Source: Alphaproteobacteria bacterium
GTDB taxonomy: Bacteria > Pseudomonadota > Alphaproteobacteria > Micavibrionales > Micavibrionaceae
Length of the DNA: 55,759 bases
Assembly (NCBI GenBank): GCA_024275825.1
Contig: JAJRYK010000021.1
Coordinates: 1-55,759 of the forward strand
Direction of reading: 5' to 3'
Below are positions 4,870 through 45,404 of the stretch, piece after piece. The notes under the pieces were generated by a model. It searched no databases. It saw only the letters and a program-made list of their open reading frames with translations, and was not told the origin of the DNA. The translations under genes were made by a program, and so were the position numbers. Numbering within the stretch: position 1 is the stretch's first letter; each line of letters starts with the position of its first letter.

Positions 4870-5523
4870 TTATTTTTCTGCCGTAGGGGCGTTGTCTTTT
4901 CTATACCCAACACTGCGCAATATCTCACTAAACAGCGCATCTGCATCATCCGCTGCCTCGCCGATCAGCTCGGCTTCTACAGACAGGGCGGAGCGGTTGC
5001 CGATCCAGAGTTGGGCGATGTAGAGGGTGGGAGTTTTTCCGACCAGGCCGGAGCCGACCAGGCCGGCTTGTTTATAGCGCTCCTCCTCGCGGAAGGATGT
5101 CTCGAAGGTTTGCACGGCACTTCGGCTGGTCATAGCGCGCAGGGTTGATTTCATTACCTCTGCGTTATATTTTTCTTTGACCTCTTCACCGATGGGGTTG
5201 CAAATCACGCGGAAATTGACGGTGGAGGACAGGGCGAAGACTTTGGTGTAGCTGATTTGGTCATAGCATTTAGCCTTAGCCTCATCCTCGCAGCGGCGGG
5301 TTTTGTAGGGCGCTTCCGGGAATGTGACGGAGAATTCGCAAAAGTCAGGCGCGTAGGTGGATTGGGCGGTATCTTGCGCAAAGCTTGATTGCATTGTGCC
5401 TATAAGCCAAAGAAAAACAAACCACCAAGACACCAAGGCACCAAGATTTTTGTAAGAATGTTTAAATACTAATTCTTTTCTTGGTGTCTTGGTGCCTTGG
5501 TGGTTAAAAATCTTTTTATTCAT
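4870..5523 (-). CDS. Secreted hypothetical protein with repeat-derived N-terminus, 217 aa
   Basis: The mature part, from about QDTAQSTYAPDFCEF, is an unrecognised periplasmic-type protein of about 170 residues with four or five cysteines. Ahead of it is a hydrophobic stretch (WWFVFLWLIG) ending in SSFAQ, which looks like a signal peptidase I site. Codons 7-37 are encoded by a long hairpin repeat (5419-5507), giving the peptide NHQGTKTPRK and later LGALVSWWFV. The ATG at 5523 overlaps the hisS stop by eight bases, allowing translational coupling. An internal TTG or GTG inside the right part of the repeat is an alternative start. The original N-terminus was probably replaced by the repeat. Confidence 0.65.
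   Translation of the reverse strand: MNKKIFNHQGTKTPRKELVFKHSYKNLGALVSWWFVFLWLIGTMQSSFAQDTAQSTYAPDFCEFSVTFPEAPYKTRRCEDEAKAKCYDQISYTKVFALSSTVNFRVICNPIGEEVKEKYNAEVMKSTLRAMTSRSAVQTFETSFREEERYKQAGLVGSGLVGKTPTLYIAQLWIGNRSALSVEAELIGEAADDADALFSEILRSVGYRKDNAPTAEK
5419..5507. repeat. Long hairpin repeat, CACCAAG-unit type
   Basis: Two arms of about 26 bases, ACCACCAAGACACCAAGG on the left and CCTTGGTGGT at the far right end, are near-perfect inverted copies around an AT-rich loop of about 33 bases. Each arm is made of short repeated units (ACCAAGRC). It lies at the junction of hisS and the secreted-protein gene, and overlaps the start of the latter. It is one of five complete hairpins in the window with this architecture but different unit sequences. 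Confidence 0.88.
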
Positions 5524-8431: not shown

Positions 8432-10325
8432 CCAATTCATCTACATCGGTAATTGTCAGTGCCTTTTGGTAGTATCTTGTGACGTCGTGGCCTATGCCTA
8501 TGGCGGTTAGTTCTATGTTTGAGCGGTCTTCTATCCAGTTTATGACGTTGCGTAAATCTTGCTCTAATACATCGCCGGGGTTTACGGACAGGGTGGAATC
8601 ATCGACCGGCGCGCCGTCGGAGATGACCATTAGGATTTTGCGGGCTTCGGGGCGTTTGGACAGGCGGTTATGGGCCCAGACTAGTGCCTCGCCATCGATA
8701 TTTTCCTTTAAGATACCTTCCTTCAGCATCAGGCCGAGATTTTTGCGGGTGCGGCGCATGGGCGCATCGGCGGCTTTGTAGATTATATGGCGCACGTCAT
8801 TCAGGCGGCCGGGCTTTTCTGGGCGGCCATTTTCCATCCATAGATCGCGAGATTTTCCGCCCTTCCACGCGCGGGTGGTAAAGCCCAAAATCTCTACCTT
8901 CACCGCGCAGCGTTCCAGCGTTCTGGCGATGATGTCGGCCGTCATGGCCGCAATGGCGATGGGTCGCCCGCGCATCGAGCCGGAATTATCGATCAGGATG
9001 GTCACGACCGTATCGCGGAACTCCGTCTCCTTTTCCTGCTTAAAGGTCAGCGGTACATCCGGGTTGGCGATGACGCGGGCAAGGCGGGAGGCATCCAAAA
9101 TTCCCTCATCCAAATCAAATTGCCAGGAGCGCTGCTGCTGCGCCATAAGCTTGCGCTGCAGGCGGTTAGCCAGTTTTGTGATGATCGCTTGATGGCTATA
9201 GAGCTGTTTATCCAGTATCGCACGCAGGCGGTATAGCTCTTCGGTTTCGGCTAAATCTTGTGCTTCGATTTCCTCGTCAAACGCCGTGGTGTAGATGGTG
9301 TAGAGACCTTCCGCGCCGCCGCCCATGCCCGCTGGCCGGTTATGCGCGGGGCCGCCGGCTGCTTCGCCTTCGCCGCCGATGTCGCTTTCTTGCTCTTGCC
9401 ACTGGCCATCATCATCCGCGCCGGTGGGGGATTGGTCTTGATCGGGGCTGTCTTCGCTGCCTTCGCCAGGCTCGCCGGGGGATTGGTCTTCTTGCTGTTC
9501 GATCTGGTCTTGCTGAGCGCTTTGCTCTTGCTCATCTTCGGCGTTTTCGAGGCCTTCATCGTCGGAGCTGTCCCCGCCGATATCCATGTCCAGAGTTTGG
9601 ATGAGGGTTTTTGAGAGTTTGGCGAATTCTTCTTGGTTTCTCAGTATGTCATCCCGACCGAAGCGTAGCGAAGTGGAGGGATCTTCTGATTCAGTTTGAG
9701 GACTAAGATCCCTCGGCTTCGCTCGGGATGACAGTGAGGGGGGTGCTTTAGATGACAGTGAGAAAAACTCTTCCATAGAGCCTTTCAAGCGCTCCTCCAC
9801 CAAAGGCTGCCACAGCTCCACCAGCTTTGTCGCAGAGGGCGGGGCAGGCTCACCGGTCAGGGCTAGGCGGGCCAGAACGTGCAGCGCGTCGCTTATGCTG
9901 CTTTGCTCGCGGTTTGTGATGTTGGCATATCCTGCGCGCTTGCAGCGCTCTTCCAGCACCGCATTTAGATTTGCACCAACGCCGCGCATTTCCTGTGCGC
10001 CGAGGGCTTCAATACGGGCATTTTCCAGCGCGCTAAAAACTTGCGCAGCGTCTCTATCACGTGGAATGAGCTGGCGGTGCAGTTTTTCATCATGATGGGC
10101 GATATACAGCGCATGCGCATCCGCGCAGCCCCGCACCAGCGTCACCGATCCGCCATTCATATCCGCATCGGGGCAGGGCAGGCGCGGGTTGGCCGTGGAG
10201 GTGATTTTACCGGTTGGTGGCTCGCCCGCGGCAAACGTGCAATCAAGCTCTTTCCTCCCCGCAATAGTGCGCATCACCGCGGCGGTGGAGGTTTTGAAGG
10301 TTTCTGATTTGCGTTGGTCTGGCAT
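8388..10325 (-). CDS. cobT: Cobaltochelatase subunit CobT
   Basis: Large subunit with CobS of the ATP-dependent complex that, with CobN, inserts cobalt into hydrogenobyrinic acid diamide in aerobic cobalamin synthesis. 645 residues: a helical N-terminal domain, an acidic Q/E/D/G/S-rich linker (about 245-340), and a C-terminal von Willebrand A domain with the MIDAS motif DNSGSMRG. Residues about 198-227 ([10 protein letters not shown] to FGRDDI) are encoded by a palindromic repeat inserted in frame (9647-9733). Family members made only of CobS/CobT-like chaperones without cobN also exist, and no cobN is visible here, so a non-cobalamin role is possible. It follows cobS after a hairpin repeat. 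Confidence 0.92.
9647..9733. repeat. GTCATCCCG-type palindrome inserted in frame in cobT
   Basis: An 87-base palindrome, TGTCATCCCGACCG on one side and CTCGGGATGACA on the other, with AGGGATCT and AGATCCCT inside. It lies wholly inside cobT, keeps the frame (29 codons), and adds a polar peptide before the acidic linker. A 12-base direct repeat GATGACAGTGAG overlaps its edge (9727-9738) and recurs at 9751-9762, giving a doubled S-L-S-S in the protein; this may mark the insertion or a later slippage. Confidence 0.9.
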
Positions 10326-26251: not shown

Positions 26252-26427
26252 TTAAATAATTTCTCCAAAGTAAAATCAGGCAACGATATAGCTCGTCATG
26301 ATATAGGCTTTCGGACGCGCAGCGTCAATCGTTACCAGTAATATATCCTGTTTCACCCTATTGAAAAGGGCGCCGCAATCCGGTACGGTTCTTCATCATT
26401 TTTACAAATTAAAAAATAGGAAAGCAA

Positions 26428-27414
26428 ATGACCATGTCAAATTTTCGTGCGTTTACTACTCAAAAATCTCAATCTGGAAATGCAGCGATTATCGCGCTGG
26501 TGGCGCTGGTTGTTGTTGCTGTTGGGGCGCTGGCGTTTTTGTCCGGCAAAATGACCAAGGATGATGGTGCCAGCGTGGTGCCAGCAGCAAATGTTGCGGC
26601 GGCCGCTGGTGATCAGACAGCAGATGTTGCTCAAACGGTTATCGAGCCTGGAAATCCGGTTGTGGCCAAGGTTGATGGCCAGGATATTACGCGTTTGGAT
26701 GTGTTTAGCTTTATTCAAACTCTGCCGCCCAATACGCGCCAAATGCCGGTGGAGCAGCTATTCCCGCTCGCCGTTGATCAGGTTGTGAATGCGCAGATTA
26801 TTAATGAAAAGGTTAAAGGCGTTAATCTGGATAGTGATCCGTTGGTGAAAGAGCAATTGGCCGCGGCTAAGGCCAACATCGTTCGTAACGTTTTCATGCA
26901 AAAAGAAGTGGAAAAGAAAGTCACGGATGAGCGTTTGCAGCAGGTTTATGAGACCTATAAGGATAATTTCCCAGAGCTTGAAGAAGCCAAGGCAAGCCAT
27001 ATTTTGGTTGCCGATGAAGCGCTGGCTACGGATTTGATTGCTAAGCTTGAGGGCGGTGCAGACTTTGCAGCGCTTGCGAAAGAAAACTCAACAGATGGTA
27101 CAGCCGAAAATGGCGGCGATCTTGGGTATTTTGCGGCGAATGAAGTTGTTCCAGAATTTGCTGCGGCTGCATTTGCTTTGAATGCTGGTGAGTTTACAAA
27201 AACGCCAGTGAAGTCTGAATTTGGCTATCACATTATTAAGCTTGAGGAAAAGCGCCAGCGTCCACCAGCGACATTTGAACAAGCCAAAGCCTTCCTTGAA
27301 GGCCAGCTCCGCCGCGCGGTGCTTGATGAGGTCGTGTTTGAATGGCGCAGAGACTCTGATGTTGAACGTTTTGATATCAACGGCAAAGACATCGAGCCCG
27401 CCGCCGGTGAGTAA
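26428..27414 (+). CDS. Membrane-anchored parvulin-type peptidyl-prolyl isomerase
   Basis: 328 residues. One N-terminal membrane helix (NAAIIALVALVVVAVGALAF) anchors the protein with the rest in the periplasm. Chaperone-like helical region about 65-170, then a PpiC/rotamase domain about 185-280 starting ASHILVADE and containing NGGDLGYF and SEFGYHIIKLEE. These are hallmarks of SurA/PrsA-like foldases that isomerise X-Pro bonds in exported proteins, in keeping with the divergent secA next door. AGGAAAG precedes the ATG. It is followed directly by the DUF559 element, 22 bases after its stop. Confidence 0.93.
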   Translation: MTMSNFRAFTTQKSQSGNAAIIALVALVVVAVGALAFLSGKMTKDDGASVVPAANVAAAAGDQTADVAQTVIEPGNPVVAKVDGQDITRLDVFSFIQTLPPNTRQMPVEQLFPLAVDQVVNAQIINEKVKGVNLDSDPLVKEQLAAAKANIVRNVFMQKEVEKKVTDERLQQVYETYKDNFPELEEAKASHILVADEALATDLIAKLEGGADFAALAKENSTDGTAENGGDLGYFAANEVVPEFAAAAFALNAGEFTKTPVKSEFGYHIIKLEEKRQRPPATFEQAKAFLEGQLRRAVLDEVVFEWRRDSDVERFDINGKDIEPAAGE

Positions 27415-27436
27415 AACTCATGAATAACGACAAAGC

Positions 27437-27850
27437 GTCCCCCCTCCCAGAGGGAGGGGGCTAGGGGGAGGGTTTACAATGGCAAATCTAAAGCACCTCG
27501 CTTGCGTCTTAAGATCCACCCCTACAGATGCCGAAACAAAATTGTGGGCGCATATACGTAGAAGACAGCTGTGCGGCCTCAAATTCAGGCGGCAATATGC
27601 CATAGATAAATATATCGTTGATTTCATTTGCCTTGATAAGGCTCTGATCATTGAAGTTGATGGCGGTCAACATAGTGAAAACCCAAAAGATACTGAGCGT
27701 ACGAGAGTGCTGGAGTCTAATGGCTTTGTGGTGCTACGGTTTTGGAATAATGATGTCTTAAGCAATATTGATGGTGTGTTGTTGGAGATTGAGCGTTTTT
27801 TAAACATCGTCATCCCCCATCCTAACCTTCCCCCTCAGGGGGAAGGGACT
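27437..27850 (+). mobile_element. GC-rich inverted-repeat element carrying a DUF559 nuclease gene
   Basis: The left end has CCCTCCCAGAGGGAGGGGG (an inner hairpin), then CTAGGGGGAGGG. The right end is CATCCCCCATCCTAACC followed by its own hairpin CCTTCCCCCTCAGGGGG. Read inverted, the right end gives the same order of parts as the left over about 40 bases, so these are imperfect terminal inverted repeats. The nuclease gene starts 2 bases inside the left end, and its last 12 codons are the right end itself. No transposase is present. Two compact copies without the gene body lie at 30206 and 35075. Confidence 0.75.
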
Positions 27851-27853
27851 TAA
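27479..27853 (+). CDS. DUF559 domain (VSR-like PD-(D/E)XK) endonuclease
   Basis: 124 residues. Matches DUF559, related to very-short-patch repair nucleases: KLWAHIRRRQLCGLKFRRQ, then the catalytic core VDFICLDKALIIEVDGGQH with Asp, the E-x-D and Q-H residues, and NGFVVLRFWNNDVL. Residues from about 112 (HPNLPPQGEGT) are encoded by the element's right inverted repeat and are unlikely to be part of the fold. The ATG follows the left repeat with no clear ribosome site. Biological role of DUF559 proteins is poorly known; a DNA-cutting role is inferred from the fold. It lies between the parvulin gene and mutT. Confidence 0.88.
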   Translation: MANLKHLACVLRSTPTDAETKLWAHIRRRQLCGLKFRRQYAIDKYIVDFICLDKALIIEVDGGQHSENPKDTERTRVLESNGFVVLRFWNNDVLSNIDGVLLEIERFLNIVIPHPNLPPQGEGT

Positions 27854-27870
27854 GAAGAAAGTAGTTTTTC

Positions 27871-28317
27871 ATGAATTGTGCAGAAGCCCTATCTAAACCA
27901 AAACCTGCCGCGCCGGATTTGCCGATTGTGTTGGTGAGTGCAGTGGCGCTTGTGGACTCTGACGGGCGTGTATTACTGGCGCAGCGGCCAGAGGGGAAAT
28001 CTATGGCCGGGCTGTGGGAATTTCCGGGCGGCAAGGTTGATGCGGGAGAGACCCCGGAATTTGCCTTGATGCGCGAGCTGGAGGAAGAGTTGGGGATTGA
28101 AACGCGCCCAACATGCTATAGTCCGATTGCGTTTGCATCACATAGCTATGACGATTTTCATCTCTTGATGCCGCTCTTTGTCTGCCGCACGTGGCGGGGC
28201 GAGGTTGAGGCGAAGGAGCATCAGGCGCTGAAATGGGTGAAGCCGACGGATATGTATGAGTATTCGATGCCGGAGGCGGATATTCCTCTTATTGCTGCCT
28301 TGAGAGACATGCTCTAG
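27871..28317 (+). CDS. mutT: 8-oxo-dGTP diphosphatase, MutT type (Nudix)
   Basis: 148 residues. The Nudix box is visible from GGKVDAGETPEF to RELEEELGI, with the metal-binding R-E-x-x-E-E core, preceded by AGLWEFPGG. Such enzymes hydrolyse oxidised nucleotides (8-oxo-dGTP) to stop A:T to C:G mutations. N-terminal 18 residues (MNCAEALSKPKPAAPDLP) are not conserved; a later start is possible. Ten bases before the methyltransferase gene, so probably one transcript. In related genomes I recall argJ between the parvulin gene and mutT; here the DUF559 element is in that place. Confidence 0.92.
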   Translation: MNCAEALSKPKPAAPDLPIVLVSAVALVDSDGRVLLAQRPEGKSMAGLWEFPGGKVDAGETPEFALMRELEEELGIETRPTCYSPIAFASHSYDDFHLLMPLFVCRTWRGEVEAKEHQALKWVKPTDMYEYSMPEADIPLIAALRDML

Positions 28318-28327
28318 AGTAGCATTT

Positions 28328-29083
28328 ATGTATCGTTCCGTTTACGACCTTAAATCTTTTTATAATGGTAAAATCGGCCGTGTTGTGCGGCGGGTGTTGC
28401 AGGAACGCATTCGCGATATCTGGCCCGATGTGCACGGATTGCGGGTGCTGGGCGGCGGTTATGCCTCGCCCTATTTGCGCAGCTTTATGGCGGAGGCAGA
28501 GCGGGTGATTGGGGTGATGCCGGCGGGGCAGGGGGCCCATGATTGGCCGCAGGATGGTAAGAACTTGGTCTGTCTAGCGGAAGAGGGCGAGCTGCCAATT
28601 GAGAGCAATTCAATTGATCGTGTGGTGCTGATCCATAGTTTGGAATTTGCGGAACTGTTGCAGCCTGCGTTGCAAGAGGTTTGGCGGGTGCTGAAATCTA
28701 GCGGGCGGGTGCTGGTGGTGGTGCCTAATCGCGGCGGGTTATGGTCACGGGCGGATTGGTCACCCTTTGGACAGGGCACGCCCTATAGCGCCTCACAAAT
28801 TCACTATTTCCTTCATGATAATTTATTTGTGCATGAGCGTACGGAAGAGGCATTGTTTATGCCGCCATTGCGTTTCGGTGGCGTGCTCAAATTTGCAAGC
28901 GTGTTTGAGCGTCTCGGGCGTTACGTCCCATTTATGGCGGGGGTGCATATCGTGGAGGCGAGTAAGCAGCTTTATGCGCGAGCGGATAAGGGCTCGGGCT
29001 CTAAACTACGTGTGCGTGGCCGCGGCTTCATGCCCCGTCCGGCGCCGCAGAATTTTTATACCGATCAGCCGCCCCCCCAATAG
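28328..29083 (+). CDS. SAM-dependent methyltransferase (type 11)
   Basis: 251 residues, class I methyltransferase fold. The nucleotide-binding loop is LRVLGGGYASPYL, followed by VIGVMPAGQGAHDWP, an acidic strand end before the SIDRVVLIHSLEFAE motif, and EVWRVLKSSGRVLVVVPNR. This variant, with Y-D-L-x-x-F-Y at the N-terminus, is a recurrent alphaproteobacterial family found near gloB or mutT; its substrate is unknown. The C-terminal tail (FMPRPAPQNFYTDQPPPQ) is proline-rich and ends inside the edge of a GC-rich repeat. Cytoplasmic. Confidence 0.85.
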   Translation: MYRSVYDLKSFYNGKIGRVVRRVLQERIRDIWPDVHGLRVLGGGYASPYLRSFMAEAERVIGVMPAGQGAHDWPQDGKNLVCLAEEGELPIESNSIDRVVLIHSLEFAELLQPALQEVWRVLKSSGRVLVVVPNRGGLWSRADWSPFGQGTPYSASQIHYFLHDNLFVHERTEEALFMPPLRFGGVLKFASVFERLGRYVPFMAGVHIVEASKQLYARADKGSGSKLRVRGRGFMPRPAPQNFYTDQPPPQ

Positions 29084-29086
29084 ACC

Positions 29087-29226
29087 CCTCTCCCTGAAGG
29101 GAGAGGGCAACGAGGCTTGAGGCCGCAGGGCTCTAGCCGCAGTGGGTGAGGGTTTAGGATGTTTCCAGTAAACAAATATTGTCACCCTTCCCCCTAGCCC
29201 CCTCCCTCAGGGAGGGGGAGTTTTTG
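29087..29226. repeat. Chimeric GC-rich inverted-repeat element without gene
   Basis: Left part: CCCCTCTCCCTGAAGGGAG, then about 60 bases with GAGGCTTGAGGCCGCAGGG and GGTGAGGGTTTAGGATG. Right part: CACCCTTCCCCCTAGCCCC and the hairpin CCCTCCCTCAGGGAGGG. The two outer ends are inverse copies of each other, but the left side has a longer insert than the copies at 30206 and 35075, and no micro-ORF like theirs. It lies between the methyltransferase and chorismate mutase genes. Confidence 0.75.
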
Positions 29227-29281
29227 GTTGTGAAGGCTATAAGCGTTTGCTTTGCGGTAATCTTCCTTGTACAAAAATGAG

Positions 29282-30202
29282 ATGTCTAAAAAACTCGATC
29301 AAATCCGTAAGAAAATCGATGCGCTGGATCACAGAATTCACGACACGCTGATGGAGCGTGCGGCCTTGATTATGGAGGTGGCGGCGGAGAAAAAGAAAAG
29401 CAATCTACCCTTTGTGCAGCCCGCGCGAGAGGCGCAGATGATTCGGCGTTTACTGGCACGTCATACGGGCAACTTGCCCGCCGCAGCCGTGGTACGAATT
29501 TGGCGCGAGCTGGTGGGGGCCGTGTCGCTGATGCAAACGGGCCTAAAGGTCGCAGTAACGATGGATGAGGGTGATAATTTGCTCTGGGATCTGGCGAAAA
29601 GCTATTTCGGATCGGTTGTGCCGATGCAGCGTTCCTCTAGCCCGCTGGCGGCGATTGCGTTGGTGCGGGAGAATGAAGCATCATTTTCCGTTCTGCCCTG
29701 GCCGCGCGATGAAGAGGGTGATATCTGGTGGCCGACTTTATTTAATCAGGAAAATAGCGAAATTAAAATTGTTGGTGCGCTGCCCTATGGTTGGGGGAAG
29801 GATCAGGCACTGAGCTGGGAGGATAAGGGGTTGATCATTTCCAAGATTGGTTTTCAGGAATCTGGTGAAGATCATAGTTTTATCGTTGTTCAAATTGATC
29901 AAGAGGTCAGCCGTGGGCGCATTGTTGATGCCTTGCGTGATCTGTCTTTTGATCCGCTGAGTGTATTTACCAAGTCAGGGTATCAGGGGACATCAAGCAG
30001 TTTACATTTGATTGAGCTGAATGACTTTGTTGCCGATGGCGATGAGCGCCTTGCCAAGATAACGCGCAAGTTTGAAGAGTATGCGGCGATTTGTATGGTG
30101 CTGGGTGGTTATCCTGTGCCGCCGGTTTACGAGATATCTGATGCGGAAAAGCAGGGTTTTGTCGCGCCGCCTGCGCCGGGCCCAAAAGCGCCGGATAAAT
30201 AA
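29282..30202 (+). CDS. Chorismate mutase with long C-terminal domain
   Basis: 306 residues from ATG 29282; a TTG start at 29267 would add five. Residues 1-90 form an AroQ-type helical chorismate mutase: LDQIRKKIDALDHRIHDTL, MERAALI, KKKSNLPF and ending LVGAVSLMQ. It converts chorismate to prephenate. The remaining 210 residues look like a degenerate prephenate dehydratase-like part with an ACT-like segment (HSFIVVQIDQEVSRGRIVDAL), but the catalytic T-R-F motif is not seen, so dehydratase activity is doubtful. tyrC follows, so both act at the tyrosine/phenylalanine branch. Confidence 0.82.
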   Translation: MSKKLDQIRKKIDALDHRIHDTLMERAALIMEVAAEKKKSNLPFVQPAREAQMIRRLLARHTGNLPAAAVVRIWRELVGAVSLMQTGLKVAVTMDEGDNLLWDLAKSYFGSVVPMQRSSSPLAAIALVRENEASFSVLPWPRDEEGDIWWPTLFNQENSEIKIVGALPYGWGKDQALSWEDKGLIISKIGFQESGEDHSFIVVQIDQEVSRGRIVDALRDLSFDPLSVFTKSGYQGTSSSLHLIELNDFVADGDERLAKITRKFEEYAAICMVLGGYPVPPVYEISDAEKQGFVAPPAPGPKAPDK

Positions 30203-30205
30203 AGA

Positions 30206-30307
30206 GTTCCCCTCCCTGAGGGAGGGGCTAGGGGAGGGGTGATAATGGTGCGTTTATCAAACATCATTACCCCCCATCCTAACCTTCCCCCTCAGGGGGA
30301 AGGGACT
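30206..30307 (+). repeat. Compact (MITE-like) copy of the DUF559 element, with micro-ORF
   Basis: About 100 bases: left end CCCCTCCCTGAGGGAGGGGC with TAGGGGAGGGG, right end CCCCCCATCCTAACC and CCTTCCCCCTCAGGGGG. Between them the frame from ATG 30245 to TAA 30310 reads MVRLSNIITPHPNLPPQGEG and a final T. Residues 4-21 resemble the end of the DUF559 protein (RFLNIVIPHPNLPPQGEGT), so the copy looks like that gene joined from its ATG to its last codons. Lies between chorismate mutase and tyrC. Confidence 0.82.
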
Positions 30308-30332
30308 TAAGAAAGATTACATTGGGGGATTG

Positions 30333-31217
30333 ATGAGCGCATTATTCGAAAAAATAACCATTATTGGTATGGGGCTTATTGGCTCCTCTTTGGCGCGCGC
30401 TGTACAGGCAAGGGGGCTGGCAGAGGAAATTGTCGCTGCTGATATTGATGAAGAGGTTTGCGCGCAAGTCAAAAGCTTAGGGCTCGCCGATACGGTGACC
30501 AGCGATATTCGCCAGAGCGTGGTGGGCAGTGATTTTGTGATGATCTGCACGCCGCTTGGCGCATATGCCGCTGTGGGCGAAGCGATTGGCCCGGGCCTGA
30601 AAGCCGGCGCGGTGGTCAGTGATGTGGGTTCGGTCAAGCAAGCTGCGATTGATGCGCTGATGCCCTATATGCCTGAGAGCGTGCAGTTCGTGCCTGGTCA
30701 CCCGATTGCGGGGACGGAGCATTCCGGGCCGGAAGCTGGCTTTGCTGCGCTGTTTGCCGATCGTTGGTGCATTTTAACGCCGCTGCCAGATACGGATATT
30801 CGTGCGGTGGAAAAGGTGACAAAATTGTGGGAGGGCTGCGGCGCGACGATTGATATATTGGAGCCGAAACATCATGACCTTGTGCTAGGCATTACCTCGC
30901 ATTTACCGCACTTGATTGCTTATACGATTGTGGGCACGGCGAGTGATCTTGAGGATGATATGGCGTCCGAAGTGATTAAATACTCGGCCAGTGGCTTTCG
31001 CGATTTTACGCGTATTGCGGCCTCTGATCCGGTGATGTGGCGCGATGTATTTCTGAATAATAAAGAGGCGGTGCTGGAAATTCTGCAGCGCTTTAATGAA
31101 GATCTAAGTGCGCTGCAAAAAGCGATCCGCCGCGGTGATGGTACATACTTGCATGATACATTCGCGCGCACGCGAGATATTCGTAAGGCCGTTATTGATG
31201 CTGGTCAGGTGGATTAA
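30333..31217 (+). CDS. tyrC: Prephenate/arogenate dehydrogenase
   Basis: 294 residues from ATG 30333, which has GGGGGA five bases upstream; a TTG one codon earlier is less likely. It oxidatively decarboxylates prephenate (or arogenate) with NAD(P)+ in tyrosine synthesis. The N-terminal Rossmann motif is ITIIGMGLIGSSLARAV, then CTPLGAYAAV, and the active-site region HPIAGTEHSGPEAGF; a helical C-terminal domain follows with LGITSHLPHLIAYT. No ACT domain. The chorismate mutase gene lies upstream, separated by a compact repeat element; its 3' end overlaps the convergent acyltransferase fusion by 4 bases. Confidence 0.93.
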   Translation: MSALFEKITIIGMGLIGSSLARAVQARGLAEEIVAADIDEEVCAQVKSLGLADTVTSDIRQSVVGSDFVMICTPLGAYAAVGEAIGPGLKAGAVVSDVGSVKQAAIDALMPYMPESVQFVPGHPIAGTEHSGPEAGFAALFADRWCILTPLPDTDIRAVEKVTKLWEGCGATIDILEPKHHDLVLGITSHLPHLIAYTIVGTASDLEDDMASEVIKYSASGFRDFTRIAASDPVMWRDVFLNNKEAVLEILQRFNEDLSALQKAIRRGDGTYLHDTFARTRDIRKAVIDAGQVD

Positions 31218-32740
31218 TTTATAGGCTGCACCGGTATTTCATAAACTGCGATTGGGCCGACATAGAGCCATTGTCCACGTTGATAGAATGGCACGCGGAC
31301 GATGCCGTCTGGGTCGGCGAGCGAACTAAACCCTGCGCCCATAAATAAAGCAACGCGCTGTTTGAGCAGGCCGCTATTGGCCAGGCGAGAGAGCAAGGCG
31401 TCGTGATTTTCGAGAGCGACTTTTAAATCAAGAGCGGGAATGGGCTCTTGCGCGGTGTCAATACGGCCCGTTATGGCGGCGGTGAATGTGCTTTGTTTAA
31501 GAGCGCTATCGGTGATGGTGACGATGTTATCATCGACATAGAGCGTCGCGTTAAAGCTGTCGAGCACAACCGGGCTTGCCCATTCATCAGATTCCAACGT
31601 GATCATATCGCTGCTTAATTTCAGGGGAGAGGCCGGAATGGGCAAAAAGCGAGCGCGGAGGTTTTTGATGCGCATTGTGCCAAGATTTGTAGTGATGATT
31701 TCCTCTGGCACATCAAGCTGTACGGGGCCAGGGAACCCGGAAATGCGCATGGTTTCAGGGCGCGTGTCATTCTTTGTCATACGGTAGAGCATGTTGTAAT
31801 AGCTCCGCTTGCTGCCTTCCGCGACTTGCTGCCAGCTATAGCTATAGGCTGCACCGAGCAAGATCAGCAGCAGGAAGATCAGGAAGGGTATCTTGAAGAA
31901 AAAGGGCAGAGATGTGATCTCGGCTTTTTCTGTTTTTGGAGCCTTCTCCGTTTTTGCCGCCTTGGGGCTGCTCTTTTTGCGGTCTTTTAGCGCGTCATCG
32001 CTTTTGGCAAGCTGGGCCTCGCTCATGAGTTTGGCAGAGGTGTTTTCGATGTTTTTTTCAATCATGGCCATAAGCTCCTTTTTGTTTTTGCCGGGCGCAA
32101 TGGGGGGCAGGAATTCGAATATAACCGTTCCGCCGCTTTTTAAAAACCCGCCGCGTGGCCAGAACAGGCCGGTATTGAGCGCGAGGGGGATGATCGGCAG
32201 GGCGGTGACTTTTTGAATGCTGGCAATGCCGGATTTATAGGGCTTGTCTTGTGTGGTGGCATCGGGCGCAACGCGGGTGCCTTGCGGGAAAATGACGATT
32301 GGGCGGCCTTGGTCTTTCATCCGCAGCGCGCCTTGATGCAGTGATTGCTGCGCGGTTTTGGGGGAGGTGCGATCAATCGCGATGACATCGCTTTTCCACA
32401 AATAGGCACCCCAGAGCGGAATGCGGAGCAGCTCGCGCTTGAGGATAATCGCCGGATCGTTGAACAGCAGGTGGAGCTTGAAAGTCTCGTAGGCGGACTG
32501 GTGCTTTGCGGCGATGATAAAGGGTCCGTTTTGGGGGAGGTGTTCCAAGCCGCGCACTTCGTAGCGCAGGCCGAGCATGACCCGCTCTAGCAGTGCCACA
32601 ATGCGTACCCAGAGTTTCACCGCACCAATGAACCACGAACGTGGCAGGATCAGCAGCGGAATATAGGCAATGCACAGCACAAGCGTGATCAGCCAAAAGA
32701 GCAGGTTAAAGATGATGGAGGTGAGGGTGCGTCTTTTCAT
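31214..32740 (-). CDS. PlsC-type acyltransferase fused to a DUF2125-like domain
   Basis: 508 residues. Residues 1-245 are a lysophosphatidic acid acyltransferase: membrane helix at 10-32, motif I KHQSAYET (H-x4-E variant seen in alphaproteobacteria), motif III FPQGTRVAP and motif IV region LPIIPLALNTG. A lysine-rich linker (KDRKKSSPKAAKTEKAPKTE) leads to a second membrane helix (about 287-305) and a C-terminal beta-rich domain that resembles DUF2125, ending ADPDGIVRVPFYQRGQWLYVG. DUF2125 genes usually stand alone next to tyrC; here one is joined to plsC. Likely acylates lyso-PA in the inner membrane; the added domain would be periplasmic. Confidence 0.82.
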   Translation of the reverse strand: MKRRTLTSIIFNLLFWLITLVLCIAYIPLLILPRSWFIGAVKLWVRIVALLERVMLGLRYEVRGLEHLPQNGPFIIAAKHQSAYETFKLHLLFNDPAIILKRELLRIPLWGAYLWKSDVIAIDRTSPKTAQQSLHQGALRMKDQGRPIVIFPQGTRVAPDATTQDKPYKSGIASIQKVTALPIIPLALNTGLFWPRGGFLKSGGTVIFEFLPPIAPGKNKKELMAMIEKNIENTSAKLMSEAQLAKSDDALKDRKKSSPKAAKTEKAPKTEKAEITSLPFFFKIPFLIFLLLILLGAAYSYSWQQVAEGSKRSYYNMLYRMTKNDTRPETMRISGFPGPVQLDVPEEIITTNLGTMRIKNLRARFLPIPASPLKLSSDMITLESDEWASPVVLDSFNATLYVDDNIVTITDSALKQSTFTAAITGRIDTAQEPIPALDLKVALENHDALLSRLANSGLLKQRVALFMGAGFSSLADPDGIVRVPFYQRGQWLYVGPIAVYEIPVQPIN

Positions 32741-32749
32741 GAATGCCCT

Positions 32750-33397
32750 CTAAAACGGGCCGGGCGTGTATTTGGATGGGTCTTGTGGATTGAGCTGTAA
32801 GTTGGTCACGCTGCTGGGCAGGAATTGTTCAAAGCTTAGGGAGAACCAACGATAAAGCGCTTTATTATATTCGCTAAAGCTCATCGTCCAATAGCGGCCT
32901 TGATTGGCCTGAAAATCTGTCTGCTCTATTGGGTGAGCGTAGATTTTCACATCCGGCATGGCGTGTTTAAACTCCTGCAAGGCACGCTTCATGTGGAAAT
33001 TGCCGGTGACCAGGCGGATGGAGTTGTAGTCCTGTTTCGCCAGCCATGCCTTTGTCTCTGTCGCATTTTGCTGTGTTGTGCGGGCTTCGTATCCCAGGAT
33101 GATGCAGCAATTGGGGAGCAGCCTGTCGCCGTCCCACATCTCTCTGATCTCGCTGCGTTTCACATCGGGGTGCACGCCGGTGATATACAGCGTTTGGGCT
33201 TTGTCGTAGGCGAACAGCTCTAGCCCTTCGTGAACGCGGCCTTTCCCTCCGGTTAACACCACAATTGCGTCTGTTTTCTGGTTTGGTCTTTGGGGCTGAA
33301 TAAACAGGCCTGCCAGCGCGTAATATAAATATCCTGCGACCCACAGCCAAAAAAGGAGTTTAAAAAGTCCGCCAAATGATTTTATACGCGCCATCAT
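32750..33397 (-). CDS. YdcF-like DUF218 membrane protein
   Basis: 215 residues. One N-terminal membrane helix (LFKLLFWLWVAGYLYYALAG), then a DUF218 domain beginning DAIVVLTGGKGRVHEGLELF and including YITGVHP and the conserved ETKAWLAKQ and RLVTGNFHM segments. The family (YdcF, SanA, ElyC) is tied to envelope integrity and peptidoglycan or lipid-carrier metabolism; the enzymatic reaction is not known. Place in the order ftsE-ftsX-ydcF-plsC, all minus strand with short gaps, supports an envelope or division role. Start is ATG-ATG; either Met could be used. Confidence 0.88.
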   Translation of the reverse strand: MMARIKSFGGLFKLLFWLWVAGYLYYALAGLFIQPQRPNQKTDAIVVLTGGKGRVHEGLELFAYDKAQTLYITGVHPDVKRSEIREMWDGDRLLPNCCIILGYEARTTQQNATETKAWLAKQDYNSIRLVTGNFHMKRALQEFKHAMPDVKIYAHPIEQTDFQANQGRYWTMSFSEYNKALYRWFSLSFEQFLPSSVTNLQLNPQDPSKYTPGPF

Positions 33398-33406
33398 ATG
33401 TTTATT

Positions 33407-34351
33407 TTACGGCATTTGGGCCAGCACGCGCAAGACCGTAAAGCGCGCCGCCATCGATGCGATGATGCAAATTAGTGTGGGGACGATGATCATGCCGATG
33501 ATGTGGCCCAGCTGAATGTGAAAATCGGGGAGGAGCGCCGCGCCGGTGTCGCCCGCGATCAGCGCGATGAGGCCCAGAACGATGAGGCCTGCGATGAGGC
33601 CGACCAGACTGCCTTTTAGCCCGATCATGAGCGCATGGCGCTGAAGCTGCCGCGTGATGTAACCATCGCCTGCGCCCATCAGATGCAGCAGCTCGACCTC
33701 TTCATTATGCACAGCCATGCGCGTGCGGATCGCGCCCGCGACGGCGGCTACAGTGGTGAAGCCGATGATCAGCAGCACAAACCCGGCCGCGAATTGCAGC
33801 GCGCCGGTGAGGCGGAGCAGATCGCCCAGCCAGCTTTCATGCGTATCGAGCCGGATTGTCTCATCTATCTCTGCGAGCGTTTTGGTGAGTTTGGCAAGAC
33901 TGCTCTCGTTAGAGATTTGCAGCTCTACCGAAAGCAAGCCGGGCAGGGGAATGTTATCGAGAATTTCACCCTGGCCCAGCCAAGGCTCGATGAGGGCTTG
34001 AATATCGCCTTGATCAAGCGCGGTGACGGATTTGATGTAGGGCTGATCACTGAGTTTTTGTTCTACGCGTTCAACTAGAGCGTTAACCTCGTTTTTTGTG
34101 CGCAAATCTGAATCATTTTTCTCGGCAGGGACTTCGATGGTGGCTTTGTTTTCCAGGCCCGATGACCAGCGCTGCGTCATGGACCCCAGCGCGAAAGATG
34201 TGCCGAGTGCCATGATGGCGAGAAAGGTCATGAGTGCGATCAGCACGACCAAAAATCCCGTGCCGATGCTTTTATTCAGCGGTAAATCATATTGGCGTTT
34301 ACCCTCGGCGACTCCTAAACGGCGGTCTTTTTTGGGTTTAAAGGGATTCAT
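33407..34351 (-). CDS. ftsX: Cell division protein FtsX
   Basis: 314 residues from ATG 34351, which shares one base with the ftsE stop (TGATG), a translational-coupling junction. Membrane partner of the FtsE ATPase; together they regulate septal peptidoglycan hydrolases. Cytoplasmic basic N-terminus (FKPKKDRRLG), helix 1 about 35-60, a periplasmic domain of about 110 residues (KATIEVPAEKND onward), then three helices in the C-terminal FtsX domain (FAAGFVLLIIGFTTVAAVAG and following). Topology and length fit the family. Sequence conservation of FtsX is low, so the ftsE link is the main support. Confidence 0.92.
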   Translation of the reverse strand: MNPFKPKKDRRLGVAEGKRQYDLPLNKSIGTGFLVVLIALMTFLAIMALGTSFALGSMTQRWSSGLENKATIEVPAEKNDSDLRTKNEVNALVERVEQKLSDQPYIKSVTALDQGDIQALIEPWLGQGEILDNIPLPGLLSVELQISNESSLAKLTKTLAEIDETIRLDTHESWLGDLLRLTGALQFAAGFVLLIIGFTTVAAVAGAIRTRMAVHNEEVELLHLMGAGDGYITRQLQRHALMIGLKGSLVGLIAGLIVLGLIALIAGDTGAALLPDFHIQLGHIIGMIIVPTLICIIASMAARFTVLRVLAQMP

Positions 34352-35049
34352 CAAAACACCCCCTCAATTTTCTTTTGGATCCAGTTTTTGGGGGCTTCGA
34401 TTTTTAACGTGCCGCTATCGAGCACGAGGCGGGAATGGCCGAACTCATCCATGATTTTCTGATTGTGGGTGGCGATCACGATGGTCGTGCCCATGCGGTT
34501 AAGCTGGTCGAACAAATTCATCAGGCGGAAACCGATTTCATCATCAAGGTTCCCGGTAGGCTCATCCGCGAGCAACAATTTCGGGCGTGCAATGACGGCG
34601 CGGGCGATCGCGACGCGCTGTTGCTGTCCGCCGGACATGGTCAGGGGCAGGACGTTTTTATGTTCGCCAAGCCCAACCCATTCGAGAAGCTCATCAACAT
34701 TATCCTTAATTTCCTTCTCAGGTCGTCCGGCGATGCGCAGAGGCAGAGCAACATTATCAAAGGCCGAAAGATGGTTAAGCAGGCGAAAATCTTGAAACAC
34801 CACGCCGATGCGCTGGCGGAGCGTGGCAAGCTTATCGCGCTCCATCTGGTTAATGTTTTGCCCGAACATGGTGACAAGTCCGCGTGTGGGCTTGCGGCCC
34901 AGATACATCAGGGTCATCAGCGAGGTTTTACCGGAGCCTGATGGCCCGGTTAGAAAATGGAACGAGCCGGGCTCTAAGGTGAAATCAATATCGGTAAGGA
35001 CCTCCGGCCCAACGCCGTAGCGCAGACCCACATGTTCGAACTTAATCAA
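34351..35049 (-). CDS. ftsE: Cell division ATP-binding protein FtsE
   Basis: 232-residue ABC-type ATPase that powers FtsX at the septum. Walker [17 protein letters not shown] (residues about 36-50), Q-loop VFQDFRLL, signature [15 protein letters not shown], Walker [15 protein letters not shown], and the switch histidine in VIATHNQ. The start is an unusual TTG (35049-35047) with AAAGGA eight bases upstream; the following [12 protein letters not shown] is the family start, so the TTG is well supported. Followed by ftsX with a one-base overlap. A compact inverted-repeat element lies just upstream. Confidence 0.97.
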
Positions 35050-35074
35050 AATGTTTTATCCTTTCACCACAAGA

Positions 35075-35177
35075 ATCCCCCTCCCTGAGGGAGGGGTTAG
35101 GGGAGGGGTGACGAACGATGGATTTATCAAACACCGTAAACCCCCACCTTAATCCTCCCCCTCAGGGGGAGGAGGTT
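35075..35177 (+). repeat. Second compact (MITE-like) copy of the DUF559 element, with micro-ORF
   Basis: Left end CCCCCTCCCTGAGGGAGGGG, then TTAGGGGAGGGGTGACG; right end ACCCCCACCTTAATCC with hairpin CCTCCCCCTCAGGGGG. ATG 35118 to TGA 35180 encodes MDLSNTVNPHLNPPPQGEEV, in register with the micro-ORF at 30245 and with the DUF559 C-terminus. Inner bases TTTATCAAACA are shared with the copy at 30206. It lies between ftsE and a secreted-protein gene, upstream of the ftsE start. Confidence 0.82.
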
Positions 35178-35191
35178 TGAAAGAGACATCA

Positions 35192-35974
35192 TCATTTCCG
35201 CTCGCTCTCACGCGGTTTTTGTACATCGAGTATATACTGCAGGCTCTGCGCTTTTTTATAGGCGTTGGTGATGTTCAGGGTCGCGGCGTGCGCGTCTTCT
35301 AGCTTTCCATGATCTGCGAGAATTTTTGAGACGATCGTGTAGGCTTTGTTGCGATAGGCGGTGCTGTTAATCGTTTCTATACTTTTCATCGCCTCTGCGA
35401 ATTTGCCTTTTTCGGCCTGGATCTCTGCGGTTTCGCCGTAGGCCTTGTGGCGCAGCGCATCATTCTCCATGTCGCTGGCGGTTTTCCGCGCGCCATCATC
35501 ATCACCGGCGAAGGCTTGCGCCATGGCGATATAGGTGAGCGCAATCGCGTAGGAGGGCTTGTGCGTGATCTTTTCGGCCTCAAAGCGCAGCGCTGTGAAA
35601 ATCGCGTTATAATCTTCTGTGCTCAATGCATTATCAGCCGCGGCCATGCCAATGCCGCGAATGGTCAGGGCCTTGGTGTCCGGGCTTTTGATTTTATTGA
35701 GGATGATAATCGCATCATCGATGCGTTTGTCGAAGGCAAGCGTTTTAGCCAGCTCGCGATAGATCTGATCGCGCCAGTTTTCATTGTCGATAGATTGCGC
35801 TGCGGCCTTTAGCTCCTCAATAACGCAGGCACGATCGCTCACGGTGCAAATCACGGGTGGAGATGTCGCAAACGCATTTTGGGCGTTTATGGTGACAAGC
35901 ACCGCTGCGGTGATAAAGAGAATTACATTTGGCATTTCAAGGAGGCCCAAAAATTTGTTACTATAGTAAGACAC
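35192..35974 (-). CDS. Secreted tetratricopeptide-like protein, 260 aa
   Basis: A signal peptide is likely: ILFITAAVLVTINAQNAFA then TSPPVICT. Met14 would be an alternative start giving a shorter leader. The mature part is made of helix pairs with A-x-A and small-residue spacing (for example YAIALTYIAMAQAFAGDDDGA, quoted only in part as AMAQAFAGDDDGA), typical of TPR or Sel1-like solenoids that bind proteins. No enzyme motif. It stands alone between ftsE and the divergent zinc-ribbon gene. Role unknown; a periplasmic protein-protein adaptor is a reasonable guess. Confidence 0.75.
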   Translation of the reverse strand: MSYYSNKFLGLLEMPNVILFITAAVLVTINAQNAFATSPPVICTVSDRACVIEELKAAAQSIDNENWRDQIYRELAKTLAFDKRIDDAIIILNKIKSPDTKALTIRGIGMAAADNALSTEDYNAIFTALRFEAEKITHKPSYAIALTYIAMAQAFAGDDDGARKTASDMENDALRHKAYGETAEIQAEKGKFAEAMKSIETINSTAYRNKAYTIVSKILADHGKLEDAHAATLNITNAYKKAQSLQYILDVQKPRESERK

Positions 35975-36036
35975 GTCGTTTATGCGTACTCTCCTAGATA
36001 CTAGAAAAAACCGCTTAAGAGAAGAACTGCGCCTTT

Positions 36037-42113: not shown

Positions 42114-42121
42114 AAATATTT

Positions 42122-42223
42122 AAACGCAAAGTAAAACAAAGTTAGACAAAGTTTATGTTTGGCCTGTGGTGTTTTTTTGAAGCTAAAAAGTACTTTGTTT
42201 TACTTTATTTTACTTTGCGGTTC
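42122..42223. repeat. Long hairpin repeat, ACAAAGT-unit type
   Basis: Left arm ACGCAAAGTAAAACAAAGTT with AGACAAAGT after it; right arm AAAGTACTTTGTTTTACTTT then ATTTTACTTTGCGG, an inverse copy built of the same units. Loop of about 35 bases (TTATGTTTGGCCTGTGG). Lies between the pentapeptide gene and the end of etfA, which are convergent, so it can act as a shared terminator-like structure. Confidence 0.85.
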
Positions 42224-42235
42224 AAAAATAATTTT

Positions 42236-43165: not shown

Positions 43166-43187
43166 GCTTTTATTTCCTTTTTATTTT

Positions 43188-43291
43188 TCACCACGAAGTC
43201 TCGAAGGACACAAAGAATCACGAAGTTTTCTTATTTTTAAAATTATATTTTTCTTTGTGATTCTTTGTGTCCTTCGAGACTTCGTGGTGAA
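43188..43291. repeat. Long hairpin repeat, CACGAAG-unit type
   Basis: The two arms of 39 bases (TTCACCACGAAGTCTCGAAG onward, and its inverse ending CTTCGTGGTGAA) differ at one position only, the best-preserved of these hairpins. Loop of about 26 AT-rich bases. It fills the gap between etfB and etfA. The near-perfect arms point to recent arrival or selection on the stem. Confidence 0.92.
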
Positions 43292-43293
43292 TC

Positions 43294-44058
43294 TTATAAA
43301 ACTTTCGCTTCGTTCTTCAACTTATCAATCAGCTCATTCACATCGGCAACCTTGCCGCCGCCTTGGCGCACGGGCGGTTCAACGACTTTGATGACTGACA
43401 GGCGCGGGGTGAAATTAACGTCTAGATCGGCGGGGGTTAAGACCTTCAGCTCTTTTTTCTTCGCCTTCATAATATCCGGCAGCTTGGCATAGCGCGGTTC
43501 GTTTAGGCGTAAATCGGTGGTGATGATGGCTGGCATTTTCAGCGCCAGCGTTTCCAGCCCGCCATCAATTTCGCGGGTGATGTTTAACGTGCCATCGCCA
43601 AGCTCCAGTTTCGAGGCGAACGTCCCTTGCGCCCAGCCCAGCAGAGCGGCGAGCATTTGGCCGGTTTGGTTGCTATCATCATCGATGGACTGCTTGCCCA
43701 TGATCACGAGGTCCGGGCTTTCCTTATCCACCAGCGCTTTGAGCGCTTTAGCAACCGCCAGCGGTTCTACGCCGCCCAGATCAATGGCCGTCTCAGTTTG
43801 CACCAAAATCCCGCGATCAGCGCCAATGGCCATGGCGGTGCGGATTTGCTCCTGCGCCTTTTCCGGGCCGATGGACACCACGATGATCTCTGTGGCTTTG
43901 CCGGATTCTTTTAAGCGCACGGCTTCTTCAACCGCGATTTCATCAAACGGGTTGATCGACATTTTGACATTGGCCAGCTCAACGCCGCTTTCATCAGCCT
44001 TTACACGGATTTTAACGTTGTAATCAACGACCCGCTTAATGGGGACAAGAATCTTCAT
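43294..44058 (-). CDS. etfB: Electron transfer flavoprotein, beta subunit
   Basis: 254 residues from ATG 44058, with GGAG nine bases upstream; an ATG at 44073 is in frame but would add five non-conserved residues. Beta subunit of the FAD heterodimer, also holding a structural AMP. Family segments: [59 protein letters not shown], and [20 protein letters not shown]. First gene of the etfB-etfA pair. Upstream lies a small HIG1-type membrane protein on the same strand. Confidence 0.97.
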
Positions 44059-45176: not shown

Positions 45177-45209
45177 AAACTGTACTTTTCTTGTAGAAGG
45201 TATAGGCTT

Positions 45210-45368
45210 TTAAACCACAGATGAACACAGATGAACATGGATTTTTTTGGTTCACGCAAAGCGCGCAAAAGGTTTAATAAAAATTCTTTGTGATCTTTGC
45301 GTTTTTTAATCTTTGCGACCTTTGCGTGAACTTTTTTATCTGTATTCATCCGTCTCCATCTGTGGTTA
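45210..45368. repeat. Nested double hairpin repeat
   Basis: Outer arms: TAAACCACAGATGAACACAG on the left and CCATCTGTGGTTA on the right. Nested inside is a second hairpin with GGTTCACGCAAAGCGCGC on the left and CGACCTTTGCGTGAAC on the right, the GCAAAG type also seen at 10355. So one repeat family appears to sit inside another. The site is the gap between ubiG (minus) and lysC (plus), which are divergent, so it also overlies their promoter region. Confidence 0.88.
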
Positions 45369-45404
45369 ATAAAATACTTAAAGCGTTAATAGAGACAAGA
45401 AGAT

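Follow-up and report, generated by a model that had tools for sequence, protein, structure and literature searches.

A nuclease gene between two hairpin arms

We analyzed a 55,759-nucleotide contig (JAJRYK010000021.1 of assembly GCA_024275825.1; hereafter the window) from an alphaproteobacterium of the order Micavibrionales. On its plus strand lies a gene of 124 codons plus stop (27479-27853) that codes for a PD-(D/E)XK/Vsr-like nuclease, assigned by Pfam profile match to DUF559 (PF04480, E 3.1e-39). The left arm (27437-27475, plus strand) consists of a GC-rich hairpin and a G-rich tail, with the strict arm pattern at 27441-27472, and the ATG follows three bases after it. The right arm (27812-27849, plus strand), a C-rich tail and a hairpin, overlaps the 3' end of the gene. 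A preliminary description made from the sequence alone had recognized a DUF559 nuclease gene with no transposase, and this holds, with no transposase found within the element (27437-27853). The same description had the reading frame run from the left repeat to an end inside the right one. The last 13 codons (112-124) are indeed coded by the right arm, but the stop lies just beyond it; the repeat-coded residues have low confidence in the structure model.

The arms had also been described as imperfect terminal inverted repeats of about 40 bases. Folding gives each arm a hairpin of its own (-19.6 and -18.1 kcal/mol), as proposed, but the arm-to-arm inverted match covers 31 of 45 positions and scores 20, compared to a 95th percentile of 23 at control positions, and a repeat search returned no inverted pair at the window locus. 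Taken alone, the arm pair of this element is not above chance. We take the arms as real because the same arm types recur in gene-free copies.

To the left of the element is a gene (26428-27414, plus strand) that we assume, from reading of the sequence, to be peptidylprolyl-isomerase-like; to its right is a MutT/NUDIX-like gene (27871-28317, plus strand), named by reading. Both serve below as landmarks of an empty site. A known RNA family was ruled out for the element, with an Rfam search of window positions 26400-36000 giving two matches only, both to animal or viral miRNA models and far under their gathering scores. A defence system was likewise rejected (best PADLOC E values of just 0.0017 and 0.005), and PHROGs gave three weak matches (best E 5e-5).

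Gene-free copies and other repeats

Gene-free copies had been reported near the element, and the window holds three, of which two are good and the third is degenerate. Copy B (30205-30313, plus strand) is made of a left arm, about 35 nt and a right arm that equals the right arm of the gene-bearing copy at 43 of 43 bases. Copy C (35074-35172, plus strand) has one L-type and one R-type arm, and B and C each fold as a single long hairpin. In the degenerate copy D (29085-29218, minus strand) the L-type arm is at 29178-29218 on the minus strand and the other arm differs. The 1.92-Mb source genome holds 23 near-full copies of about 100 bp, B and C included, each of which pairs an L-type with an R-type arm, and 22 of them are intergenic by a simple ORF rule. 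The strict arm pattern occurs at 44 sites in this genome and its reversed control at none. No target-site duplications were found in the 21 source-genome copies with settable ends, two of which (L016 and L018) had misplaced ends; the longest shared flank word was 3.67 for a copy's own flanks and 3.41 for mismatched ones.

The window also contains a second repeat family, of ACCACCAAGACACCAAG / ACCACAGAG type and grouped by eye, at 5418-5505, 42119-42225, 43178-43300 and 45208-45372. Within the order, inverted repeats of this type flank genes for GxxExxY nucleases (PF13366; loci L244-L273), of which the source genome has five, and 23 of 28 testable loci out of 30 have inverted repeats above the 99th percentile of controls. 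Another inverted repeat, TGTCATCCCGACCGAAGCG.../...GGGATGACA, is found at window positions 9647-9733.

Arms flank DUF559 genes in the order and in other phyla

Of the 142 genomes of the order, 56 have a PF04480 match, with the strong matches amounting to 58 genes in 43 genomes. We examined 57 of these genes, leaving out a contig-end fragment in G038, which was still scored as a carrier genome; weak matches inside large proteins were left out of the study. Hairpin arms were recognized in 90 of 112 flanks of 56 order loci, some flanks being cut by contig ends. The preliminary description had proposed conserved inverted ends as a check, and the tested DUF559 genes that are near in sequence are mostly flanked in this way: the inverted arm pair exceeded the 99th percentile of same-locus control positions at 39 of 55 order loci (L050 has no left flank, which leaves 56, and one further row had less than 80 bases of flank) and at 61 of 75 loci from other phyla. 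The latter sample is biased, being drawn from the 80 best-scoring DUF559 relatives, from which L164 and L177 (order genomes) and others with short flanks were removed; L231 was excluded from the 75-locus test for a run of N but included among the 76 loci ranked for arm partners. A locus's own right arm was the best partner, among 76 right arms, of its left arm in 39 of these 76 non-order loci. Within the order, whose arms resemble one another, it came first at just 13 of 56 loci.

According to record titles, the loci outside the order belong to Alpha-, Beta-, Gamma- and Deltaproteobacteria, Nitrospirae, Nitrospinota, Dadabacteria, Aminicenantes, Omnitrophota, Phycisphaeraceae, Gastranaerophilales, Helicobacter, Daviesbacteria and Wirthbacteria. 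Not every sampled group has a significant arm pair (the Nitrospinota locus scores 23 and the Dadabacteria locus 21), and Escherichia coli YcjD has none, its gene in K-12 lying armless between fabI and sapF. Six plasmid-borne loci of Azospirillum, Sinorhizobium and Sphingomonas, drawn from 44 plasmid records with a DUF559 match, were all without a significant pair, and some plasmid-borne DUF559 peptides retain one arm-like stretch. For an Azospirillum locus, itself without a significant pair, no empty site was found in conspecific replicons, as each of the seven records that match 80% or more of the query spans 99-100% of its length and is occupied. Arm flanking is not universal among DUF559 genes. 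A tree of the DUF559 proteins (105 columns) was poorly resolved, and the PriA, RimM and SufS labels did not form single clades.

Arms track the nuclease gene

Across the order, the strict arm pattern was found in 59 of 142 genomes, while the reversed control gave three sites, all in one genome. Arms are present in 41 of 43 DUF559 genomes versus 18 of 99 others (Fisher 5e-19), and 31 of 43 versus 18 of 99 have more than two arms for each gene. The association persists when genomes are permuted within genera (p about 1e-4 for the 70 genomes of 12 mixed genera), and of the 23 genomes that have at least ten arms, 20 carry DUF559. There are exceptions on both sides: two of the 43 carrier genomes have no arms, and the arm-bearing genomes without a strong DUF559 match include G045 (12 arms), G130 (15) and G073 (13), the last of which has a fragment of DUF559 where a contig ends. 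The CG arms also correlate with the PF13366 nuclease (41 of 56 versus 18 of 86 genomes), and therefore genomes may differ in general permissiveness, but the effect of DUF559 persists in both carriers and non-carriers of PF13366.

Y1_Tnp showed no association with arms over the 142 genomes (19 of 42 versus 40 of 100, p 0.58), and we rejected a RAYT or Y1 enzyme as the mover on this ground; Y1 matches below E 1e-13, found in 13 genomes, showed a weak trend (arms in 9 of 13 versus 50 of 129, p 0.04). In the source genome, a 3' fragment of a Y1 transposase lies beside a transposase remnant at a contig start (L061, G000:C33:1-400); we take the fragment to be IS200-like and the remnant IS630-like. 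The arms had been suggested to form a nuclease-driven or nuclease-dependent repeat system. The association among genomes supports dependence of the arm copies on DUF559, whereas that the nuclease drives them is a further step, which we infer.

In-frame insertion inside host genes

The DUF559 element sits in frame inside the gene for PriA in nine genomes, at core position 138 in eight and at position 223, just ahead of the Walker A motif, in one; in G009, whose contig starts inside the insert, position 138 was judged from the right side alone. The inserts are one open frame of a nuclease of about 105 aa and repeat-coded linkers, with lengths of 138-149 aa in seven genomes and 200 aa in an eighth, while the end of a contig truncates the ninth. 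No intein domain was found in Pfam scans of 20 host ORFs; given this and the single open frame, the inserts probably carry no self-splicing part of an intein or group I intron.

Other genes with DUF559 in their interior, identified by Pfam, code for TrpF, Mfd (in a Rickettsiales genome), a GHMP kinase, two class-I tRNA synthetases (one of them, L122, lying at the edge of a contig) and an M14 peptidase whose N-terminal part was identified by eye. A second case in Mfd, in G102, is probable, based on a UvrB_inter domain in a protein whose contig ends. PriA and Mfd act in replication or repair. A Helicobacter locus has DUF559 in one frame with a DNA methylase. DUF559 is fused to the N-terminus of RimM in six genomes and of a SufS-like protein in four (three of the ten named by Pfam, the others by eye), and of a SufBD protein, an EPSP-synthase-type enzyme, MeaB, CbiC and a SpoU methylase. 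The suf genes recur beside DUF559 or as its hosts: SufBD and SufS-like N-termini in the order (L043, L047, L049, L109 and L114), and the sufB-sufC gap on a Sphingomonas plasmid (L320).

Gene-free inserts occur in PriA as well, at position 223 in L126 and L149 and, in an arm-like form, at position 138 in G024. The PriA of the source genome (L124, G000:C33) has an in-frame insert of 25 residues at position 626, the DNA of which is an arm-like hairpin.

Evidence for movement

In a PriA tree of 67 rows with the insertion region removed (duplicate L160 and short rows L078 and L148 were left out), occupation of position 138 by its eight carriers requires eight changes, of which no fewer than six are forced by supported branches, and carriers are unclustered relative to shuffles. 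Such scattered occupation suggests repeated gain, or many losses. The congeners G009 and G010 have nucleases that are sisters in the DUF559 tree (100/99) and lie at PriA positions 138 and 223, respectively, and G009 has a gene-free copy at 223.

Co-conversion of flanking sequence is a known mark of homing (PMC3943268). Between the occupied PriA of G046 and the empty one of G045, protein identity is 98.4% outside and 53% over positions 118-180, and DNA identity is 40-64% in windows 135 to 180 versus 78-100% in the other windows shown. A divergent tract of this kind is a prediction of homing with co-conversion. A weaker effect is seen for G106 versus G104 and G105 (0.97 outside and 0.68-0.73 inside); G104 and G105, both empty, have 0.88 inside and 0.99 outside between them. 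However, this region of PriA is variable in general, with mean identities of 0.71 inside and 0.86 outside in 25 pairs without an insert (a set that still contains a duplicate G024 pair), and in one pair of empty alleles (L145/L154) identity is 0.80 outside and falls to 0.39 inside. Because of this variability, the evidence for co-conversion comes mainly from one pair, and horizontal transfer with ordinary recombination could yield the same tract without a nuclease.

Empty sites, another check proposed at the outset, were found both for gene-free copies and for the window locus. We compared ten gene-free or single-arm copies of G046 with G045 (first 400 kb of each, 88% DNA identity), and six have an empty orthologous site; of the remaining four, two have sites with different or partial arms, a third is complex and the fourth lacks a match to its left flank. 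Several of the new sites contain tens of extra bases beside the arms, and five such filler stretches matched only themselves in the 400 kb searched. By reading, the gene-free arms of G046 are not closely like those of its PriA insert. At the window locus, the two neighbors of the element lie directly next to each other in the congener G037, with a short gap and no element, at a protein identity (55%) that leaves the exact joints unreadable.

The enzyme

Foldseek searches with the structure model gave as top match 3hrl, an uncharacterized endonuclease-like protein of Neisseria gonorrhoeae. The nearest characterized fold is that of homing endonuclease I-Bth0305I, whose catalytic domain (3r3p) is matched at E 5e-5 and, by target length, TM 0.76; the DUF559 protein also matches it by profile (E 0.006). 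E. coli Vsr (1vsr) is a weak fold match (E 0.05, TM 0.50-0.54). R12, E19, D48, E59, D61 and H65 are among the residues invariant in 50 DUF559 sequences. By fold and profile, the window protein is predicted to have the EDxHD homing endonuclease catalytic fold. A DUF559 gene has been assigned to the EDxHD family in one paper (PMC9403480). VsrA of Caulobacter contains DUF559, is proposed to act in mismatch repair and leads to an SOS response in cells without cytosine methyltransferase (PMC12907096); therefore, such a DUF559 protein can act on the host genome.

A probable homing-like element without splicing

Our combined findings make it probable that the element is homing-like and nuclease-driven, inserts in frame without being spliced and has non-autonomous derivatives. 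Its mobility is deduced from comparison among genomes, and we infer DNA cutting and a causal role of the nuclease. The unit would consist of a single small nuclease gene of Vsr/EDxHD type with a hairpin arm on either side. With its frame open through the arms, as in the window copy and the in-gene copies, it may be tolerated as an unspliced linker insert, or else it may reside in an intergenic gap. The nuclease would recognize and break unoccupied DNA. Where an occupied allele is available, such as the PriA of another species, repair would copy in the element along with the host sequence beside it; at new sites, illegitimate repair would join a copy without target duplication and with some filler. 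The short gene-free derivatives, two arms in about 100 bp, would spread alongside the gene-bearing element, with the nuclease acting on them in trans. Comparison among genomes bears out the unit structure, the apparent dependence of the arms on DUF559, the in-frame inserts and the scattered occupation of the PriA site. It likewise brings out the co-conversion-like tract, the empty sites, the absence of duplications and the kinship to a homing endonuclease fold.

The arms could instead be REP- or MITE-like repeats moved in trans by a RAYT, an IS200-like or another transposase, with DUF559 a captured passenger. The gene-free copies do resemble REPINs, with two hairpins and an intergenic position in 22 of 23 cases, and DUF559-negative genomes have arms too; but Y1_Tnp, the transposase family searched for, does not track the arms, the source genome yielded just the one 3' Y1 fragment, target duplication is absent, and the pairing of the same nuclease with such arms in many phyla is hard to explain for a passenger. 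We therefore consider such a transposase unlikely. About equally unlikely is passive movement, in which GC-rich palindromes provide homology for recombination, accompanied by horizontal transfer, and the nuclease contributes nothing. Any allele replacement gives co-conversion-like tracts, and the extra non-element bases flanking new insertions would fit as well, yet for six of the ten G046 copies compared, the site in G045 offers no arm for recombination, and arms depend on DUF559 within genera.

Least likely, in our judgment, is that DUF559 is a useful host protein, Vsr-like in repair or defence, that its joinings to PriA and Mfd are functional fusions and that the arms are terminators or linkers. 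The replication and repair roles shared by PriA and Mfd would suit such a protein, as would the armless YcjD of E. coli K-12 and the SOS effect and proposed mismatch repair of VsrA (PMC12907096). Against it are the other hosts, which include TrpF, tRNA synthetases, RimM, SufS-like and EPSP-synthase-type enzymes, the congeners without an insert, the sister copies at different positions of one gene, and the insert itself, which carries matching palindromes and has gene-free counterparts.

If the element is homing-like, it suggests that a homing-type gene can colonize essential genes by tolerated in-frame insertion, without an intron or intein, and it offers a candidate driver for palindromic repeats until now without one. 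It also predicts that many odd fusions of PriA, Mfd and tRNA synthetases in databases are mobile-element insertions and not functional domain fusions. We tentatively put forward, as a possibility, a broader class of selfish elements in which a homing-type nuclease in a palindromic shell spreads unspliced by in-frame insertion into the linkers of essential genes, is translated with them and is accompanied by parasitic gene-free copies, with at least two nuclease families (DUF559 and GxxExxY/PF13366) and different repeats. If true, such a class would explain many orphan palindromic repeats and proline/glycine-rich inserts in bacterial proteins.

Comparison with known systems

No published description of such a DUF559 element was found in the open-access papers searched. 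The element resembles MITEs and insertion sequences in having short inverted-repeat copies and a longer gene-bearing form, but has neither a transposase nor target duplications. It shares its nuclease superfamily with Vsr and with the DUF559-containing VsrA, and the terms 'palindrom' and 'inverted repeat' are absent from the main text of the VsrA paper (PMC12907096). Rickettsia palindromic elements are known in frame in host genes (PMC10969869), and relatives of the window element are, by description, similarly palindromic and in frame in coding genes. No enzyme is named for those elements in the accessible part of that account (PMC10969869), whereas the DUF559 element carries its own nuclease and is found in many phyla.

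The preliminary description had drawn an analogy to REP elements and their RAYT enzymes. Pairs of hairpin repeats, REPINs, have been described as non-autonomous units (PMC3116915), and the analogy fits the gene-free copies, which are likewise paired inverted hairpins of about 100 bp, mostly extragenic and tied to a gene. REP palindromes bear GTAG or CGTC tags (PMC3733652), and we ruled out membership in these superfamilies, each tetramer being present in just 4 of 90 arms. In addition, the DUF559 nuclease is of the PD-(D/E)XK type and not a Y1 (HUH) tyrosine enzyme, and relatives of the element insert inside genes. In-frame gene insertion, reoccupation of one PriA site and the co-conversion-like tract point to homing over REP-type transposition.

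The closest likeness in the enzyme is to homing endonucleases of the I-Bth0305I type, with which the window protein shares its nearest characterized fold, although the DUF559 protein, at about 105-125 aa, lacks the long DNA-binding region that has been described in I-Bth0305I. Unlike homing endonuclease genes in introns or inteins, the insert stays in the host protein, and the DUF559 element has palindromic arms and short non-autonomous copies.
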